DNA of 44,016 nt from NCBI GenBank assembly GCA_017462755.1, contig JAFTQM010000001.1, positions 1 through 44,016 of the forward strand, given 5' to 3'. Position numbers and translations under genes: made by a program. This stretch comes from Lachnospiraceae bacterium (GTDB lineage Bacteria > Bacillota > Clostridia > Lachnospirales > Lachnospiraceae). How positions within the stretch are numbered: position 1 is the first letter of the stretch; the number at the start of each line of letters is the position of its first letter. Positions 2,415 through 10,438 of the stretch are shown one piece after another. The notes under the pieces were generated by a model that saw only the letters and a program-made list of their open reading frames with translations, was not told the DNA's origin and did no database searches.

Positions 2415-2444
2415 AAAAGACCCGGGAAGTAATTTCCCGGGTCT
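2415..2444 (-). terminator. Hairpin between radical-domain gene and pflA
   Basis: A perfect 11-bp inverted repeat (AGACCCGGGAA, five-base loop, TTCCCGGGTCT) is followed on minus by TTTTG. It looks like a leaky intrinsic terminator. Placed here, it would give less pflA than pflB message, as expected for an enzyme and its catalytic activase. The effect is inferred from structure only. Confidence 0.6.
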
Positions 2445-2474: not shown

Positions 2475-2717
2475 TTACATATTCTCGTGGAATGTACGAG
2501 AAATAACGTCTGCCTGCTGCTCTGGAGTTAACTTAATGAAGTTAACTGCGTATCCGGATACACGGATTGTCAGCTGTGGGTACTTCTCTGGATGAGCCTG
2601 TGCATCCAGCAGAGTGTCTCTGTTTAATACGTTTACATTTAAGTGGAAACCACCCTTTGTAACGTAACCATCTAATAACGATACAAGGTTATCAACCTGT
2701 GCTGCATTTGCTGCCAT
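2475..2717 (-). CDS. Stand-alone PFL glycyl-radical domain (GrcA-like)
   Basis: An 80-residue protein matching the C-terminal end of pyruvate formate-lyase: [15 protein letters not shown], then HPEKYPQLT and the radical motif RVSGYAV with the glycine at residue 55, then [17 protein letters not shown]. The glycine is 26 residues from the C-terminus, the same spacing as in E. coli PFL (Gly734). It has its own ATG and a strong AGGAGG site. The large upstream PflB stops before this domain, and the two together total 759 residues, about one normal PFL. It differs from proteobacterial GrcA/YfiD, which repairs an otherwise intact PFL, because here no other copy of the domain is visible. I infer that it docks into PflB to make the active enzyme. 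Confidence 0.9.
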
Positions 2718-2732
2718 GATTTTGTCCTCCTA

Positions 2733-2963
2733 TTATTTTTCTTTTTGCTCCGGTTCGGATGCCGCACGGTCATCCAGCCCCTTTTCGAGAGTTGGTACAC
2801 TGCAGGCCATCGGCGTCTTGGAACAATCCGTACAGCCCATTGTCTGAACGCTTTTTGCCTGCTCACTGTTTTGGTCCATATCGACATTGACATGTCCCAC
2901 ACCCTTGGTCATGCCGGAATCCAGCATCTTTACAAGGTCATCAATCATTGCTTTTTCGTTCAT
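2733..2963 (-). CDS. Small GRD-like protein with cysteine cluster, unknown function
   Basis: A 76-residue protein between the two halves of PFL. Its first 30 residues (MIDDLVKMLDSGMTKG, GHVNVDMD) resemble the start of the neighbouring radical-domain protein ([24 protein letters not shown]). It then diverges: there is no RVSGY glycine loop, but there is a Cx2Cx6C cluster (CTDCSKTPMAC) and a charged tail. The ATG at 2963 has a GGAG nine bases upstream; a TTG at 2978 is less likely because it overlaps that site. It starts 48 bp after pflB and ends 15 bp before the radical-domain gene, so it is probably co-transcribed. It may be a diverged duplicate that occupies the radical-domain groove or binds metal. 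The function is unknown. Confidence 0.72.
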   Translation of the reverse strand: MNEKAMIDDLVKMLDSGMTKGVGHVNVDMDQNSEQAKSVQTMGCTDCSKTPMACSVPTLEKGLDDRAASEPEQKEK

Positions 2964-3011
2964 ACGAGGTGTCTCCAATCTGTTCTATACTACTATATGA
3001 TGTTGATTTGA

Positions 3012-5051
3012 TTACTTATTTAAATCAATCTCGATGTCACCGCTGAATACGATGTCTTCCTTACCAAGTGCACCTGGGATTACAGTGAAGGTATTGGAGA
3101 TACCGTCCTCTGCATCACCGAATGGAAGCTTGGATACGGATGCTAAAGATGCTACTGCACCGTTGGTATCACGACCATGCATTGGGTTAGCACCCGGTGC
3201 GAATGGCTGTCCCTTCTTACGTCCGTCCGGAGTATTACCGGTAGCCTTACCATAGGTTACGTTGGAAGTAATGGTAAGAATGGAAGTGGTAGGAATACCA
3301 TTTCTGTAGGTATGATGTCTTCTTACTGCGGTCATGAACTTGTGAACGATTTCCTGAGCGATATCGTCTACGCGGTCATCATCGTTACCATACTTAGGGA
3401 AGTCGCCGGTGGTCTTGAAGTCAACAATGATGCCGTCCTCATCACGAACAACCTCTACCTTTGCATACTTAATAGCGGACAGGGAGTCAGCTACGATAGA
3501 CAGACCTGCCACACCGGTAGCGAAGTAACGAAGAACGTTCTTGTCATGAAGAGCCATCTGTGCTCTCTCATAGCAGTACTTGTCATGCATGTAGTGAATG
3601 ATGTTCAGAGTATTTACATATACATCTGCCTGCCACTCAACCATATCCATGAACTTCTGCATTACATCGTTGTACTCAAGCACATCGCCTTCTACCGGAC
3701 GATAGTGAGGACCTACCTGCTTCTTGGTAACCTCGTCTACACCACCATTTAAAGCGTAGAGTAAGCACTTTGCAAGGTTTGCACGAGCACCGAAGAACTG
3801 CATTTCCTTACCCATAACCATGGAGGATACGCAGCAAGCGATACCGTAGTCATCACCATGCTTTGGTCTCATAAGGTCATCGTTCTCGTACTGGATGGAA
3901 GAGGTCTCGATGGACATCTTAGCACAGTACTTCTTCCAGTTCTCCGGAAGTCTGGTGGACCACAGAACAGTAAGGTTTGGCTCTGGGGAAGCACCAAGGT
4001 TGGTTAAGGTGTGCAGATAACGGAAGCTCATCTTGGAAACCATATGTCTACCGTCTACACCAACACCTGCTAAGGACTCAGTTACCCATACAGGGTCACC
4101 TGCGAAAATCTGATTGTACTCAGGAGTACGAGCGAATCTTACCAGACGCAGCTTCATGATGAAGTGGTCGATGAACTCCTGAATCTGCTCCTCAGTGAAG
4201 GTACCGTTTGCAAGGTCTCTCTCTGCATAGATGTCAAGGAAGGTAGAGGTACGTCCAAGGGACATAGCTGCACCGTTCTGCTCCTTAACGGTAGATAAGT
4301 AACCAAAGTAGGTCCACTGAATAGCTTCCTGTACGTTTGCTGCCGGCTTGGAAATATCAAAGCCATAGGAAGCAGCCATCTGCTTCATCATCTTTAATGC
4401 AACGATCTGCTCGGAAATCTCCTCGCGAAGACGGATTACATCGTCAGTCATTACTCTGCCGGTGGAATCCTTCTGCTCTAACTTGTCCTCAATCAGACGG
4501 TCGATACCGTACAGAGCCACACGTCTGTAGTCACCGATGATACGACCACGGCCGTAAGCATCCGGAAGACCGGTAATAATATGGGAAGAACGGCATGCTC
4601 TCATCTCATCGTTGTAAGCATCGAAGCAGCCTGCGTTATGTGTCTTTCTATGTGTAGAGAAGAACTCGCTGATTTCAGGATCTACGGTGTAGCCATTGTC
4701 AGCACATGCCTTCTCTGCCATACGGATACCACCGTAAGGCTGTAAGGAACGCTTGAAAGGCTTGTCTGTCTGGAAACCTACAATCGTCTCCTTATTCTTA
4801 TCTAAGTAACCCGGAGCATGAGAGGTAATTGTGGAAACAACCTTGGTATCCATATCCAGAACACCGCCTGCTTCTCTCTCCTGCTTCTGTAAATCCATTA
4901 CCTGTGCCCATAAATCCTTTGTGTTTTGTGTAGGGCCAGCCAAAAAGCTCTCGTCGCCATCATATGGATGATAGTTCTTCTGGATAAAGTCGCGAACGTT
5001 AATCTCCTTATCCCACTTGCCGCCTACAAAATTTGTCCATTCTGGTCTCAT
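3012..5051 (-). CDS. pflB: Pyruvate formate-lyase catalytic core lacking glycyl-radical domain
   Basis: Converts pyruvate and CoA to acetyl-CoA and formate. The 679-residue protein contains the full PFL barrel, including the catalytic Cys406-Cys407 pair (GIACCVSSM) equivalent to Cys418-Cys419 of E. coli, and runs to the [19 protein letters not shown] region. It then ends at a clean TAA, about 80 residues short of a normal PFL. The missing RVSGY domain is the separate gene at 2475-2717. Start at ATG 5051 with AGGAGG ten bases upstream. The stop, the intervening small gene and the fresh ribosome binding sites argue against a sequencing frameshift. A consensus promoter and a nested inverted repeat lie upstream. 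By itself this protein should be inactive. Confidence 0.93.
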
Positions 5052-5101: not shown

Positions 5102-5146
5102 AATTGAGAAAATTACATCACGAGGTAATTCTTCATCAGCTCAATT
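5102..5146 (-). promoter_or_regulatory. Nested inverted repeat in the pflB leader
   Basis: AATTGAG (5102-5108) pairs with CTCAATT (5140-5146), and inside it AATTAC (5111-5116) pairs with GTAATT (5125-5130). It overlaps the -10 and the predicted start of pflB transcription, so it is well placed as an operator or leader stem. It does not match the FNR or Rex consensus. Confidence 0.45.
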
Positions 5147-5172
5147 ATATGTGAAACTTTCGGCATAGTCAA
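5144..5172 (-). promoter_or_regulatory. Sigma-A promoter of the pfl operon
   Basis: On minus, TTGACT, a 17-bp spacer and TATAAT. The predicted start is near 5137, about 85 bases before the pflB ATG. This is one of the best promoter matches in the window and fits strong expression of a fermentation enzyme. Confidence 0.75.
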
Positions 5173-5364: not shown

Positions 5365-6747
5365 ATGAAAAAAAGACATATTTTCCGAACAAAAACCATC
5401 GCATGCTTTTTGCTGGCAGCTCTGCTGACCTCCTGTGGTCAGTCCGGCAGTTCTGAACAAGCTTCTTCCTCTCCGACGGCTTCCGCAGCCGGCACTCCAT
5501 CGGAAGCTCCGACTGAAGTTCCAACACCAACCACTGCTCCGACGACTACTCCGACTCCAACCACTGCTCCGACACCGACACCTGACCCGGAGGCAGAATA
5601 TTGGCAGGGAGTACTGGATTCCTTTGCGGACAGCAGCTATGACCTGACCGCTGCGCTGACCGAGCCTTCTCTCAAATCGCTCTGCGCAGATTATTTTAAA
5701 CTCGGTGTCGGCTTAACCGGAAGCAGCTACAACAATTTGGCAATCCATTCGGACGAATATATGACGGTCGTAAAAAAGCATTTTAACAGCTGTACCTTAA
5801 CCAATTTGATGAAGCCAAGCTACATACTAAATCAGGCAGACAGCCGCGAAAATATTGCCAACGGAAATCCCGAACCGGCTTTGGACTTTTCCCGTCTCGA
5901 TGAAACCCTGCAGTGGTGTCTTGACAATGGTGTGCAGATGCGCGGTCACACGATTGTATGGCATACCCAGACTCCGGACTGGTATTTCCGCGAGGGCTAT
6001 ACCAACGACGGAGCTTATGTAAATCGCGATACCATGCTCGCCCGTCTGGACAGCTATACCAAGCAGATTATGACCTATTGTCAGGAAAATTATCCGGGTG
6101 TCGTGTACTGCTGGGATGTGGTAAACGAAGCGGTTGACCCGTCAAACGGTGACCCGGACAGCTTCTATCACTGCCGTATGGAAAATGACAATACTCCAAA
6201 TCAGTGGTATCACGTCATTGGTGACGATTACGTCGAGCAGGCATTCCGAATTGCCCGCAAATATGCCGCAGAGGGCGTAAAGCTTTTTTACAATGATTAC
6301 AGCACCTACGATACTGCCAAGCGTCAGTATATCTACAATTTGTGCGAGCATTTAGCAAACGAAGGGCTGATTGACGGTATCGGTATGCAGGGCTACTGGG
6401 GCGTCGGACATCCGAGCATTGCCACGCTCGAAACCACCATCCGCCAATATGCCAAGCTTGGACTTGAAATCCAGATTACCGAGCTGAGTATCAGCACAGA
6501 CGAAGCAACCGAAGCAGAATTTGAGCGTCAGGCAAAACGTTATTCTTCCATATTTTTAATGCTTTCCGAAGTGGATTCCGAAGGAGGCGGACCGGCAAAC
6601 ATTACTGCCGTTACCCTGTTTGGTCTGATGGACGGATATGTTTTTTATGCCGACGATGACACTACGTCCCGTCTGTTTGATACCAATTTCCAACCAAAAG
6701 CTTCCTTTTATAAGGTCAAAGAAATGCTGAAACTTGCCTTTCAATAG
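5365..6747 (+). CDS. GH10 endo-beta-1,4-xylanase, surface lipoprotein
   Basis: Cleaves the xylan backbone outside the cell. The 460-residue protein starts with a lipoprotein signal (lipobox LTSC, lipid-attached Cys24), then a Thr/Pro-rich linker (residues about 45-75) that lifts the enzyme off the membrane. The rest is a single GH10 barrel: GHTIVWHTQTPDW (194-206), acid/base Glu255 in WDVVNEAVD and nucleophile Glu373 in ITELSIS. No carbohydrate-binding module is present. The start has GGAGG eight bases upstream. It stands alone between pflB and the PFOR gene; I see no xylan transporter nearby. The identification is firm; substrate range (xylan or mixed-linkage glucan) is inferred. Confidence 0.93.
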   Translation: MKKRHIFRTKTIACFLLAALLTSCGQSGSSEQASSSPTASAAGTPSEAPTEVPTPTTAPTTTPTPTTAPTPTPDPEAEYWQGVLDSFADSSYDLTAALTEPSLKSLCADYFKLGVGLTGSSYNNLAIHSDEYMTVVKKHFNSCTLTNLMKPSYILNQADSRENIANGNPEPALDFSRLDETLQWCLDNGVQMRGHTIVWHTQTPDWYFREGYTNDGAYVNRDTMLARLDSYTKQIMTYCQENYPGVVYCWDVVNEAVDPSNGDPDSFYHCRMENDNTPNQWYHVIGDDYVEQAFRIARKYAAEGVKLFYNDYSTYDTAKRQYIYNLCEHLANEGLIDGIGMQGYWGVGHPSIATLETTIRQYAKLGLEIQITELSISTDEATEAEFERQAKRYSSIFLMLSEVDSEGGGPANITAVTLFGLMDGYVFYADDDTTSRLFDTNFQPKASFYKVKEMLKLAFQ

Positions 6748-6830: not shown

Positions 6831-6919
6831 TTTAAGCAGATACAATTTAATTGTTTAGCACTTTAATCCAGTGCTATTTATTGGTTTTTTTGACAAGAAT
6901 AACAAGGAGGATCAATTAC

Positions 6920-9900
6920 ATGGCTAGAAAAATGAAAACCATGGATGGTAATACCGCAGCAGCACACGTATCCTATGCATTTACCGACTGTGCGGCAATC
7001 TATCCGATTACCCCTTCTTCTCCACTGGCTGACTACACCGATATGTGGTCCACCCAAGGAAGAGAAAATATCTTCGGTCATCCGGTAATCCTTACTGAGA
7101 TGCAGTCCGAGGCAGGTGCAGCAGGTGCCGTACACGGTTCCCTTACCGCAGGCGCGCTGACTACCACCTATACCGCTTCTCAAGGCTTATTATTGATGAT
7201 TCCGAATATGTATAAAATTGCCGGTGAGCTGCTTCCGGGCGTTATCAACGTAACTGCTCGTGCAATCGCCAGCCACGCACTTTCGATTTTCGGTGACCAT
7301 TCCGATATTTATGCCTGCCGTCAGACCGGTTTCGCTATGCTTTGCTCCGGCAATGTACAGGAGACGATGGATCTTGGCGCAGTAGCACATTTGACCGCAA
7401 TCAAGGGTCGCGTACCGTTCATGCATTTCTTTGATGGTTTCCGTACCTCCCACGAGATTCAGAAGGTCGAAATCTGGGACTACGAGGACTTAAAAGATAT
7501 GTTGGATATGGATGCCGTAGATGCATTCCGCAAGAGAGCACTCAATCCGGAGCATCCGCAGCAGAGAGGTACCGCTCAGAACCCTGACGTATTCTTCCAG
7601 GCAAGAGAAGCAAGCAATCCTTACTACAATGCAGTACCTGAGTTAACTCAGATGTATATGGATAAGGTAAATGTAAAGCTTGGTACTGACTACAAATTAT
7701 TCAACTACTATGGTGCAGCAGACGCAGAGCATGTTATCGTAGCAATGGGCTCTGTCTGTGATACCATCGAAGAAACCATTGATTATCTGAATGCTGCCGG
7801 CGGCAAGTACGGTGTGGTAAAGGTTCGCCTGTACCGTCCATTCTCCGCAAAGCATTTAATCGACGTGATTCCTGCTTCCGTAAAGCAGATTACCGTTCTT
7901 GACCGTACCAAGGAGCCGGGTGCTCTGGGCGAGCCGCTCTATCTTGACGTAGTAGCAGCCTTAAAGGATTCCCAGTTTACCGCAGTTCCGGTATACTCCG
8001 GTCGTTACGGTTTGGGCTCTAAGGATACGACTCCGGCTCAGATTAAGGCAGTATATGAGAACAATGCAAAGAAGAAATTTACCATCGGTATTGTTGACGA
8101 TGTAACCAAGCTTTCCCTTGACGTACCGGAAGAAATCGACACCGCTCCTGCCGGTACGACCTCCTGTAAGTTCTGGGGTCTCGGTGCAGACGGTACCGTA
8201 GTTGAAAACAAGAACTCCATCAAGATGATCGGTGACCATACTGACAAGTACGCTCAGGCTTACTTTGATTATGATTCCAAGAAGTCCGGTGGTGTGACCA
8301 TCTCCCACTTACGCTTTGGTGATAAGAAGATTCGTTCCACCTACCTGATTAATAAGGCAGATTTCGTAGCCTGCCATATGCCTGCTTACGTTCGTAAGTA
8401 CAATATGGTGCAGGATTTGAAGGACGGCGGCTCCTTCCTGTTAAACTGCTCCTGGACACCGGAAGAGCTGGAAAAGGAATTGCCGGGTCAGGTAAAGAAG
8501 TATATCTACGACCACAAGATTAACCTGTATACCATCGACGGCTTCAAGCTTGGTAAGGAAATCGGTCTTGGTACTCGTATCAATACCATTCTCCAGTCCG
8601 CATTCTTCTCCATTTCCGGTATTATTCCGGAGGAAGATGCCGTGAAGTATATGAAGGACGCAGCTACTGCTACCTATTCCAAGAAGGGTGATGACGTTGT
8701 AAAGATGAACCACGACGCTATCGACGCAGGCTGCAAGAATTATACAAAGATTGAAATTCCGGCTTCCTGGGCAGATGCTACAGAGGAGAGTCTGGCAATA
8801 TCTGCTGCATCCGGCAGACCGGAGGTATTAAAATATGTAAACAGCATCCAGAATGCAATCAATGCTCAGAACGGCAACAGCCTGCCGGTATCGGCATTCA
8901 TAGATTACGCAGACGGTACCGTTCCGCTTGGTACGGCTGCTTACGAAAAGCGCGGTGTGGCAGTGGATGTTCCGGTATGGAATTCCGAGCTTTGTATCGG
9001 CTGTAACAAGTGTTCTCTGGTGTGTCCGCATGCCTGCGTTCGTCCGGTTGCAATGACCGAGGCGGAGGCTGCCGCTGCTCCTGCAACTGCAGCTACCAAG
9101 GAATTAAAGACCATGCCTGGCAGAAAATTCGCTGTAACCATCTCCGTACTTGACTGTACCGGTTGTGGTGCCTGCGGCAATGCCTGCCCGGTTAAGGCAA
9201 TTACCTTTGACGCTTTAGAGAATCAGTTAGAAACTCAAAAGATGTTTGACTACGGTGTTACCTTAGAAGAGCCGACCGAGATTATTGCAAAGTTTAAGGA
9301 AACTACAGTAATCGGCAGTCAGTTCAAGCAGCCGCTTCTTGAGTTCTCCGGCGCTTGCGGCGGCTGTGGCGAAACACCTTACGCAAAGCTTGTAACACAG
9401 CTGTTTGGTGACAGAATGTATATCGCAAATGCAACCGGTTGTTCCTCTATCTGGGGCGGCTCCTCTCCTTCCACACCATATACGGTAAACAAGGAAGGCA
9501 AGGGTCCGGCTTGGGCAAACTCCTTGTTCGAGGACAACGCAGAGTTTGGTCTTGGTATGCAGTTAGCATCTACGACCTTAAGAGAGCGTGTTATCGACTC
9601 TGTAAAGAGACTTTCCGAGACCGCAGAAAAGCCGGAAGTAAAGGTGTTACTCGACGAGTTCCTTGCAACCAAGGATTCCTCGACCTTAAACGGACCTGCA
9701 GCAAAGAAGCTTGTCGCTGCATTAGAGGCTTGTGACTGTGACAATCCGGACAGAGCAAATATCTTAAAGAACAAGGATTTCTTAGCAAAGAAGTCTCAGT
9801 GGATTTTCGGTGGTGACGGCTGGTCCTACGATATCGGCTTCGGCGGTGTAGACCATGTACTCGCTTCCGGCAGAGATGTCAATATCCTCGTATTCGATAC

Positions 9901-10438
9901 CGAGGTTTACTCCAATACCGGAGGTCAGTCCTCCAAGGCAACTCCTACCGGTGCTATCGCTCAGTTCGCTGCAGCCGGTAAGGATGTAAAGAAGAAGGAT
10001 TTGGCAGGTATCGCTATGAGCTACGGCTACATCTATGTAGCACAGATTGCTATGGGCGCAAGCGAAGCTCAGTGTATCAAGGCATTGGCTGAGGCAGAGA
10101 GCTATCCGGGTCCATCCTTAGTAATCGCTTATGCTCCATGTATCAACCATGGCATCAAGGGTGGTATGAAGAATGCACAGGCAGAAGAAAAGCGTGCCGT
10201 AGAAGCAGGCTACTGGCATCTGTTCCGCTTCGACCCACGTCTTTCCCTGGAGGGCAAGAACCCATTCCAGTTAGACTCCAAGGAGCCTACCGCAGATTAC
10301 CTTGAGTTCATTAACAGCGAGGTGCGTTACAATCGTCTTTCCCGCTCCAACCCTGAGAGAGCAAAGGCTCTTTTTGAGAAGGCAGCGAAGGAAGCAAAGG
10401 ATAAGTACGCAAAGCTTGCTGCAATGGCTGGTAAATAA
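6920..10438 (+). CDS. nifJ: Pyruvate:ferredoxin (flavodoxin) oxidoreductase
   Basis: Oxidatively decarboxylates pyruvate with CoA to acetyl-CoA and CO2, passing electrons to ferredoxin. It is a single-chain enzyme of 1172 residues, the usual length. Domain order: pyruvate-binding N-terminal domains (ITPSSPLADYTD), the gamma/EKR region, two 4Fe-4S clusters (CIGCNKCSLVCPHAC near residue 692, CTGCGACGNACPVKAI near 745), a third-cluster cysteine region (ACGGCGETPYAK) and the thiamine-diphosphate domain (GGDGWSYDIGFGG near 963, then EVYSNTGGQSSKATPTGA). The start is the ATG after AAGGAGG; the frame continues 23 codons upstream without a ribosome binding site. With the split PFL, this gives the cell two routes from pyruvate to acetyl-CoA. 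Confidence 0.96.
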   Translation: MARKMKTMDGNTAAAHVSYAFTDCAAIYPITPSSPLADYTDMWSTQGRENIFGHPVILTEMQSEAGAAGAVHGSLTAGALTTTYTASQGLLLMIPNMYKIAGELLPGVINVTARAIASHALSIFGDHSDIYACRQTGFAMLCSGNVQETMDLGAVAHLTAIKGRVPFMHFFDGFRTSHEIQKVEIWDYEDLKDMLDMDAVDAFRKRALNPEHPQQRGTAQNPDVFFQAREASNPYYNAVPELTQMYMDKVNVKLGTDYKLFNYYGAADAEHVIVAMGSVCDTIEETIDYLNAAGGKYGVVKVRLYRPFSAKHLIDVIPASVKQITVLDRTKEPGALGEPLYLDVVAALKDSQFTAVPVYSGRYGLGSKDTTPAQIKAVYENNAKKKFTIGIVDDVTKLSLDVPEEIDTAPAGTTSCKFWGLGADGTVVENKNSIKMIGDHTDKYAQAYFDYDSKKSGGVTISHLRFGDKKIRSTYLINKADFVACHMPAYVRKYNMVQDLKDGGSFLLNCSWTPEELEKELPGQVKKYIYDHKINLYTIDGFKLGKEIGLGTRINTILQSAFFSISGIIPEEDAVKYMKDAATATYSKKGDDVVKMNHDAIDAGCKNYTKIEIPASWADATEESLAISAASGRPEVLKYVNSIQNAINAQNGNSLPVSAFIDYADGTVPLGTAAYEKRGVAVDVPVWNSELCIGCNKCSLVCPHACVRPVAMTEAEAAAAPATAATKELKTMPGRKFAVTISVLDCTGCGACGNACPVKAITFDALENQLETQKMFDYGVTLEEPTEIIAKFKETTVIGSQFKQPLLEFSGACGGCGETPYAKLVTQLFGDRMYIANATGCSSIWGGSSPSTPYTVNKEGKGPAWANSLFEDNAEFGLGMQLASTTLRERVIDSVKRLSETAEKPEVKVLLDEFLATKDSSTLNGPAAKKLVAALEACDCDNPDRANILKNKDFLAKKSQWIFGGDGWSYDIGFGGVDHVLASGRDVNILVFDTEVYSNTGGQSSKATPTGAIAQFAAAGKDVKKKDLAGIAMSYGYIYVAQIAMGASEAQCIKALAEAESYPGPSLVIAYAPCINHGIKGGMKNAQAEEKRAVEAGYWHLFRFDPRLSLEGKNPFQLDSKEPTADYLEFINSEVRYNRLSRSNPERAKALFEKAAKEAKDKYAKLAAMAGK

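Follow-up and report, generated by a model that had tools for sequence, protein, structure and literature searches.

Division of the enzyme over separate genes

How can a pyruvate formate-lyase (PFL) be put together if its catalytic barrel and its glycyl radical are encoded by different genes? This question is raised by a locus of a Lachnospiraceae bacterium (assembly GCA_017462755.1, contig JAFTQM010000001.1, positions 1 to 44,016; this whole stretch of 44,016 nucleotides is called the window below). A first-pass annotation of the sequence had described an enzyme of two parts, a catalytic core and a separate radical carrier. Both parts are present (Table 1), but a third gene lying between them, here termed MID, had been overlooked. 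The reported end of PflB after residue 679 is a clean stop, and the chain contains the adjacent cysteines ('IACCVSSM') and lacks RVSGY, as had been stated. That motif is indeed found on a separate gene for 80 residues with its own AGGAGG, which by eye is located just 5' of the ATG on the coding strand.

Table 1 Features of the split PFL locus in the window
Feature	Position	Strand	Remarks
pflA, 251 aa	1633..2388	-	radical-SAM activating enzyme; TIGR02493 294.3 bits (cut-off 231.75)
G+C-rich hairpin of 11 bp followed by TTT	2418..2444	-	attenuator-like, between grcA3 and pflA; by eye
grcA3, 80 aa	2475..2717	-	stand-alone glycyl-radical subunit, RVSGY
MID, 76 aa	2733..2963	-	accessory; radical-domain-like helix and strand at the start, CTDCSKTPMACSVPTL at the end
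pflB core, 679 aa	3012..5051	-	catalytic barrel without glycyl-radical domain
TTGACT-17-TATAAT	5144..5172	-	promoter-like, upstream of pflB; 11/12 consensus matches

The core matches the Pfam family PFL-like (PF02901) over residues 15-601 with an E-value of 2.9e-218 and reaches 1099.9 bits against TIGR01255 (curated cut-off 994.2), covering model positions 2-663 of 744. Hence, score and adjacent active-site cysteines are those of TIGR01255, while the glycyl-radical loop is missing from this chain. The Pfam Gly_radical model (PF01228, 106 positions) is divided over two genes, its positions 1-49 matching core residues 617-665 and its positions 51-106 the 80-residue reading frame. Likewise, residues 10-680 of E. 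coli PFL (1h16) match core residues 4-668, and residues 682-759 match residues 8-80 of the small protein. The earlier remark that 679 and 80 residues sum to 759, about one PFL, is arithmetically correct but partly coincidental, since roughly 11 residues ending the core (FAGDIELDL in the window's clade) and roughly 7 opening the small protein are surplus in comparison with 1h16. By score, the small protein is a member of NCBIfam NF038360, GrcA3, a family whose name implies radical repair (158.6 bits, cut-off 158; 157.4 bits and thus just under it in the genome scan), and it also matches the radical domain of YfiD/GrcA in PDB entry 6owr.

Regarding expression signals, promoter-like sites occur 8 times in the region versus 7.7 times in shuffled sequences, and the hairpin does not appear in the output of the terminator scan, which requires five T. 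Next but one to the split PFL, a 1195-aa protein is encoded (6851-10438, plus strand) that by eye resembles pyruvate:ferredoxin oxidoreductase, another enzyme that cleaves pyruvate. The intervening lipoprotein-like ORF of 460 aa (5365-6747, plus strand) presumably resembles a GH10 xylanase.

Occurrence of the split and its interpretation

A role as spare part, as known for GrcA, presupposes a full-length, oxygen-cleavable PFL in the same cell. In the window's genome, a draft of 99 contigs, PF02901 has a single match, the core itself; the search for a second PFL suggested earlier thus revealed no other core, and since the genome is only 81.7% complete, an unseen one is possible. Three radical-domain matches were obtained in this genome, two of which are genes of the locus already described, while the third, on another frame, reads as the end of what we take to be NrdD, the anaerobic ribonucleotide reductase.

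A contig scan with the core yielded 377 relatives, the best 80 of which align over essentially the whole length with 89-92% identity. Together with the window these form a first set of 81 loci, 74 of them with at least 1600 nt readable downstream. The radical gene and MID were found in all 74 (for MID, 73 plus L078, whose copy holds ambiguous bases) and an activase recognizable by its motif in 63. In a further set of 60 loci, chosen by truncation of the core or presence of MID (see below), the radical gene was again found in every case. The split recurs in many genera. The first-pass annotation had proposed to look for the gene order in related genomes, and the position of the radical gene downstream of the core (74/74 and 60/60 readable loci) is free of circularity. 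All 138 split cores contain ACC, and all 138 radical subunits R[VI]SGYAV, a count that is partly circular, as R[VI]SGY had served for their recognition. In comparison with six relatives, pN/pS amounts to 0.09-0.13 for the core, 0.09-0.17 for the radical subunit and 0.22-0.38 for MID, at high synonymous divergence; core and radical subunit are under purifying selection, the core strongly so.

Among 250 genomes of the family, the small-protein profile gave some match in 211. Stand-alone radical matches (frames below 200 aa, not each inspected) number at least 111 in at least 96 genomes, and MID proper occurs in 64 genomes; two more that matched (G085, G123) were left out because the match was limited to the radical-subunit start. 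A stand-alone radical gene is present in 63 of these 64 genomes. The exception, G006, is 67% complete; its MID (L276:1337-1579) lies away from any PFL operon, and neither core nor radical gene was found. Similarly, MID of G002 (L275:3096-3401) is on another contig than core and radical gene (L269). Truncated cores also exist in the single-contig assemblies G046 and G085, and full-length and truncated PFL occur together in some family genomes such as G085 and G119, while in the window's own genus, G173 lacks MID and encodes a full-length PFL. Beyond the family, MID was found in three further families of the order sample (f8, f11, f22) and stand-alone radical subunits in six families of the class sample (f177, f181, f184, f185, f215, f225). 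Outside the family, the GrcA3 matches listed for a phylum sample (398 genomes) are on long frames save three: one frame is broken by runs of N (G722), one lies at a contig end (G553) and one belongs to a different enzyme (G726).

The latter enzyme (L233:1473-4120) is of the PFL2/dehydratase type, and its radical domain is encoded by a separate gene after the ribosome-site-like GGGGGTG. It scores 626 bits against TIGR01774, under the cut-off of 678.2. The 30 matches listed for its 41 relatives are mostly on long frames and in a few cases on short ones (G949, G864, G922); the single case is either an independent split or an error.

Two simpler explanations of the window's locus can be weighed against these data. 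That a sequencing or assembly error or a frameshift split a single gene might be suspected in a 99-contig draft, but such an error is rejected and left with practically no probability: dozens of genomes, among them single-contig assemblies, show the split again, and in most cases an entire gene separates the two parts, so that it is not an artefact. Alternatively, the cell might possess a full-length PFL, with GrcA3 as a mere repair protein, like YfiD of E. coli, and with the short core as a relic. The NCBI name 'autonomous glycyl radical cofactor' and the family genomes with both PFL forms would fit this explanation. It is nevertheless highly improbable, given the strong purifying selection on the core, the occurrence of the split in many genera and the failure to see another PFL core in the window's genome (81.7% complete), which also speaks against the silent duplicate of an intact PFL that the first-pass annotation had named as a possible refutation. 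The same observations, no other core found, wide conservation and purifying selection, support well that the radical domain is a separate and needed subunit; GrcA3 is probably such a subunit rather than a repair factor. The split PFL is hence a real and widespread PFL variant in many Clostridia.

Additional copies of the radical gene

Two stand-alone radical genes each were found in 15 of the at least 96 genomes and one in the window's genome. Fourteen of the second copies have no PFL core within the 3.7-8 kb read, and that of G097 lies beside pflA at a contig edge. Five more orphans from the order sample (L236, L237, L238, L240, L241) bring the total to 19. According to gene labels that are readings of the sequence, nine of the 19 adjoin a spoIIIAA-like gene and two (L260, L268) a Crp-type gene. 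Three of the 19 are beside rubrerythrin-, desulfoferrodoxin- or rubredoxin-like genes: genes of thioredoxin-like and rubrerythrin-like type follow the orphan of L235, that of L240 is near desulfoferrodoxin-like and rubrerythrin-like genes, and that of L262 is followed by a gene for a rubredoxin-like protein. For six of these 14 genomes, 54-67 of 70 positions are shared by the orphan and operon copies.

The radical carrier had been proposed to be exchangeable. Independent support for this proposal comes from the orphan copies in other genomes, although the window's own genome has no second copy; the carrier is probably exchangeable. Cheap replacement of the subunit after cleavage by oxygen, and regulation of activity through its supply, which had been proposed as well, remain suggestions.

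MID as a relative of the radical domain

The 76 residues of the window's MID are counted from an ATG that by eye is preceded by GGAG, while the list of reading frames gives 81 aa from an upstream TTG. This protein belongs to no Pfam family, and 29 MIDs gave two stray single-member matches in Pfam with E-values of 0.074 and 0.25. Its first residues, compared with NCBIfam, give a weak match to GrcA3, as was also the case for a divergent MID. When wide profiles, with 25 rows for MID and 14 for the radical subunit, were aligned by hhalign, a pairwise E-value of 3.7e-9 at 96% probability was obtained, with 36% identity over the first 33 columns, whereas the narrow profiles are no more than suggestive (49% probability, E = 1.7e-4). 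At the level of sequence, MID therefore contains the N-terminal helix and the barrel strand of a glycyl-radical domain. The shared region includes the strand HLNVNV, which by our own matching would correspond to strand ten of the PFL barrel and to y-beta1 of YfiD (strand names according to PMC8683613).

The RVSGY loop is absent from the window's MID, and by eye no glycine loop is seen in any of the 25 aligned MIDs. In the wider set of MIDs a zero count of RVSGY is partly circular, as those of the 60-locus set had been picked for its absence. Within the alignment of 25 rows, D15, G23, N26 and C47 are invariant and H24, A53, C54, P57 and T58 nearly so. The tail, CTDCSRTPLACSVPTLHEGLDD, is rich in cysteine; in L152 and L166, MID ends after the first cysteine pair, and in L135 its frame overlaps the end of the core. 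Hence, MID appears to be half a radical domain joined to a cysteine-rich tail.

MID-like starts were also observed in eight small proteins without a PFL core in the stretch read. Six of them (L239, L242, L244, L246, L247, L248) share an end like YHHGRCDVGSPWAKG and two (L243, L245) contain CCxMYGR; one of each kind was compared with NCBIfam, and neither gave a match.

Alternation of MID with a cysteine tail on the core

The alternative to MID became apparent in 55 loci, namely every listed core match that does not extend beyond position 704 of the profile (744 positions). These were chosen by truncation alone, at a time when the MID family was already known. MID without cysteines in the core tail was found in 28 of them and a cysteine-tailed core without MID in 27; no locus had both and none had neither. 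Five further loci, added from MID matches to give the 60, are all of the MID type, so that both elements together occur in 0/60. Tailed cores are extended by a stretch with two or three cysteines, for example CEAGSCAIPNLEEGLD or CGDMACKVPTLHKGID, which resembles the MID tail. Two to three such cysteines are present in 27/27 tailed cores and none in the other 33 cores, nor in any of the first set of 81.

A further 33 loci with readable core end and radical gene were picked with the MID result known, which deprives their proportions of meaning but leaves the tail a fair test. (L220, which lacks the core, and L234, with MID and radical gene but no core, were left out.) No cysteine tail was present in the 14 loci with MID in the genome (L223-L232, L284-L286, L269). 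The remaining 19 loci, for which no MID was found, comprise 15 with at least two cysteines in the tail (L215-L219, L222, L270, L271, L273, L274, L287, L288, L289, L291, L293) and four with neither element (L221, with a single cysteine, L272, L290, L292). The rule of always exactly one cysteine element, which held in the first 60 loci, is therefore withdrawn, and the element is not indispensable. The PTL/PNL motif is absent from several tails (L215-L219, and L293, which has just GCCEDNID), and the core of L288 is interrupted by a stop. Positions 46-67 of the MID profile, run against the frames from ten loci, detect the tail of the L291 core (E = 3.9e-5) and, more weakly, the core tails of L288, L287 and L289 (6e-4 to 2e-3). 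Since this last third of the profile finds core tails, some of these and the end of MID are related by more than visual resemblance.

In the 30 best-scoring loci of full-length family PFLs, 29 have no cysteine between core and radical domain. The exception, L024 (G096), with CGCEEVTC at this place and CCM at the end, is a fused form carrying the cysteine element.

A quick tree was calculated from 94 cores without their tails. On it, one set (SH-aLRT 99) comprises the split cores together with six full-length PFLs. This nesting suggests that the six, L024 and five others, may have arisen by re-fusion, but a branch with all split rows on one side was not rejected by an AU test (p = 0.094). The MID and tail designs interchange on the tree: well-supported branches force at least six changes of MID and at least seven of the tail, and in six of six independent pairs the two change in opposite ways (p = 0.031). 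For split state versus cysteine element, the core tree offers three independent pairs only, too few for statistical power.

Proposed mechanism and the role of MID

Taken together, we consider it likely that the locus encodes a naturally split PFL consisting of a core, a GrcA3-like radical subunit and an accessory MID; points against it are the full-length enzyme without MID in G173, the possible second PFL mentioned above, the four later loci with neither MID nor tail, and the weak binding in E. coli described below. The core supplies the barrel and the two active-site cysteines. By analogy with the chemistry of E. coli PFL and YfiD/GrcA, PflA would generate the glycyl radical on GrcA3, which would dock on the core through the strand that forms the tenth barrel strand of an ordinary PFL and thereby place its glycine loop in the active site. 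As the subunit is untethered, a cleaved or undocked GrcA3 could be swapped for a new one, and the orphan genes may provide an additional supply in some relatives. MID most likely docks near the core C-terminus via its radical-domain-like helix and strand and would bring along a cysteine pair; there it would cover the open site or assist the loading of the radical subunit. Elsewhere, the related tail attached to the core might act in its place.

Support for such an assembly comes from E. coli: PFL cut at residue 695 and combined with YfiD has wild-type activity once activated, while binding of YfiD to the truncated core is too weak to measure, activation is 32-fold less, and residues 696-733 of PFL as well as 1-60 of YfiD matter for binding (PMC8683613). 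Given this weak binding, natural split enzymes should need a substitute. Candidates may be the additional residues at the end of the core (FAGDIELDL) and the helix that the radical subunit has retained, besides MID or the tail.

What MID does can be read in several ways. Tentatively, the family, half a radical domain with a cysteine-pair tail that is the core's own tail elsewhere, might cap or gate the site between visits of the exchangeable subunit, giving a three-part and continuously re-loadable enzyme. It is also conceivable, if doubtful, that MID is a competitive placeholder which occupies the tenth-strand site once the radical subunit is gone, covers the active-site cysteines and regulates loading, with the cysteine pair as redox or metal switch. 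MID does resemble exactly those elements, helix and strand, by which the radical subunit is seated, the 25 aligned copies show no glycine loop, and C47 is invariant with C54 nearly so in the wide alignment; yet no such decoy domain exists in species whose core carries the tail, and four of the 33 later loci have neither element. A third and rather unlikely possibility is that the cysteine tail acts like the [4Fe-4S] small subunits of benzylsuccinate synthase (BSS), as a redox or structural element that keeps stray thiyl or glycyl radicals under control or quenches them. Most split enzymes have kept it at either of two sites, which would agree with this, as would the finding that 29 of the 30 full-length PFLs lack it ahead of the radical domain. 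There is also precedent, since BSS beta is reported to favor the formation of thiyl radicals, and a quenching role has been suggested as well (PMC12590467). However, the tail has two or three cysteines only, and the narrow MID profile A1 found no PDB match at E-values up to 10.

Relation to known systems and significance

The core resembles canonical PFL (E. coli PflB, TIGR01255) in its cysteine pair, its PflA partner and a score above the curated cut-off even without the last 80 positions, and differs in the radical domain on another chain, the extra residues at the core end and the third gene. Like YfiD/GrcA, GrcA3 carries the radical domain, and the pair resembles the truncated E. coli PFL combined with YfiD in vitro; YfiD, however, has 127 aa, is half disordered and serves a full-length enzyme (PMC8683613). 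For GrcA3 of the window, no full-length PFL was found, and the helix before the strand is carried as well. The closest solved relatives of the core are two chains named 'Formate acetyltransferase', PDB 38la and 38lb (1088.6 and 1137.3 bits), be they natural chains or constructs. Both are without the radical domain, as they are not among the 34 PDB matches of GrcA3, and no MID chain accompanies them; 38lb extends past the core with the cysteine-bearing stretch GECDMC. The small subunits of BSS and HPAD are, like MID, small cysteine-bearing accessory proteins of a glycyl-radical enzyme. In these enzymes, the radical domain remains on the large chain. Their small subunits bind [4Fe-4S] clusters (PMC12590467), while for MID only the sequence was compared, and profile A1 revealed no relation to the solved Fe-S subunits (0 PDB matches, E up to 10).

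A text search of the literature, covering few subscription journals, retrieved no paper on a split PFL and none naming GrcA3. The NCBI name and the two PDB chains without radical domain nevertheless limit the novelty of the split, which itself may be known to others; the MID/cysteine-tail element and its alternation have no known match in what was searched.

These results would correct the annotation, in which the short PflB should not be regarded as a fragment and GrcA3 should probably be listed as a subunit. What in E. coli is a repair event appears in many genera of Clostridia as a natural and genetically fixed spare-part arrangement. This makes it possible to test whether an exchangeable subunit delivers the glycyl radical under normal conditions, by what means such an anaerobe survives exposure of a main pyruvate-cleaving enzyme to air, and which role the MID/cysteine-tail element may play.
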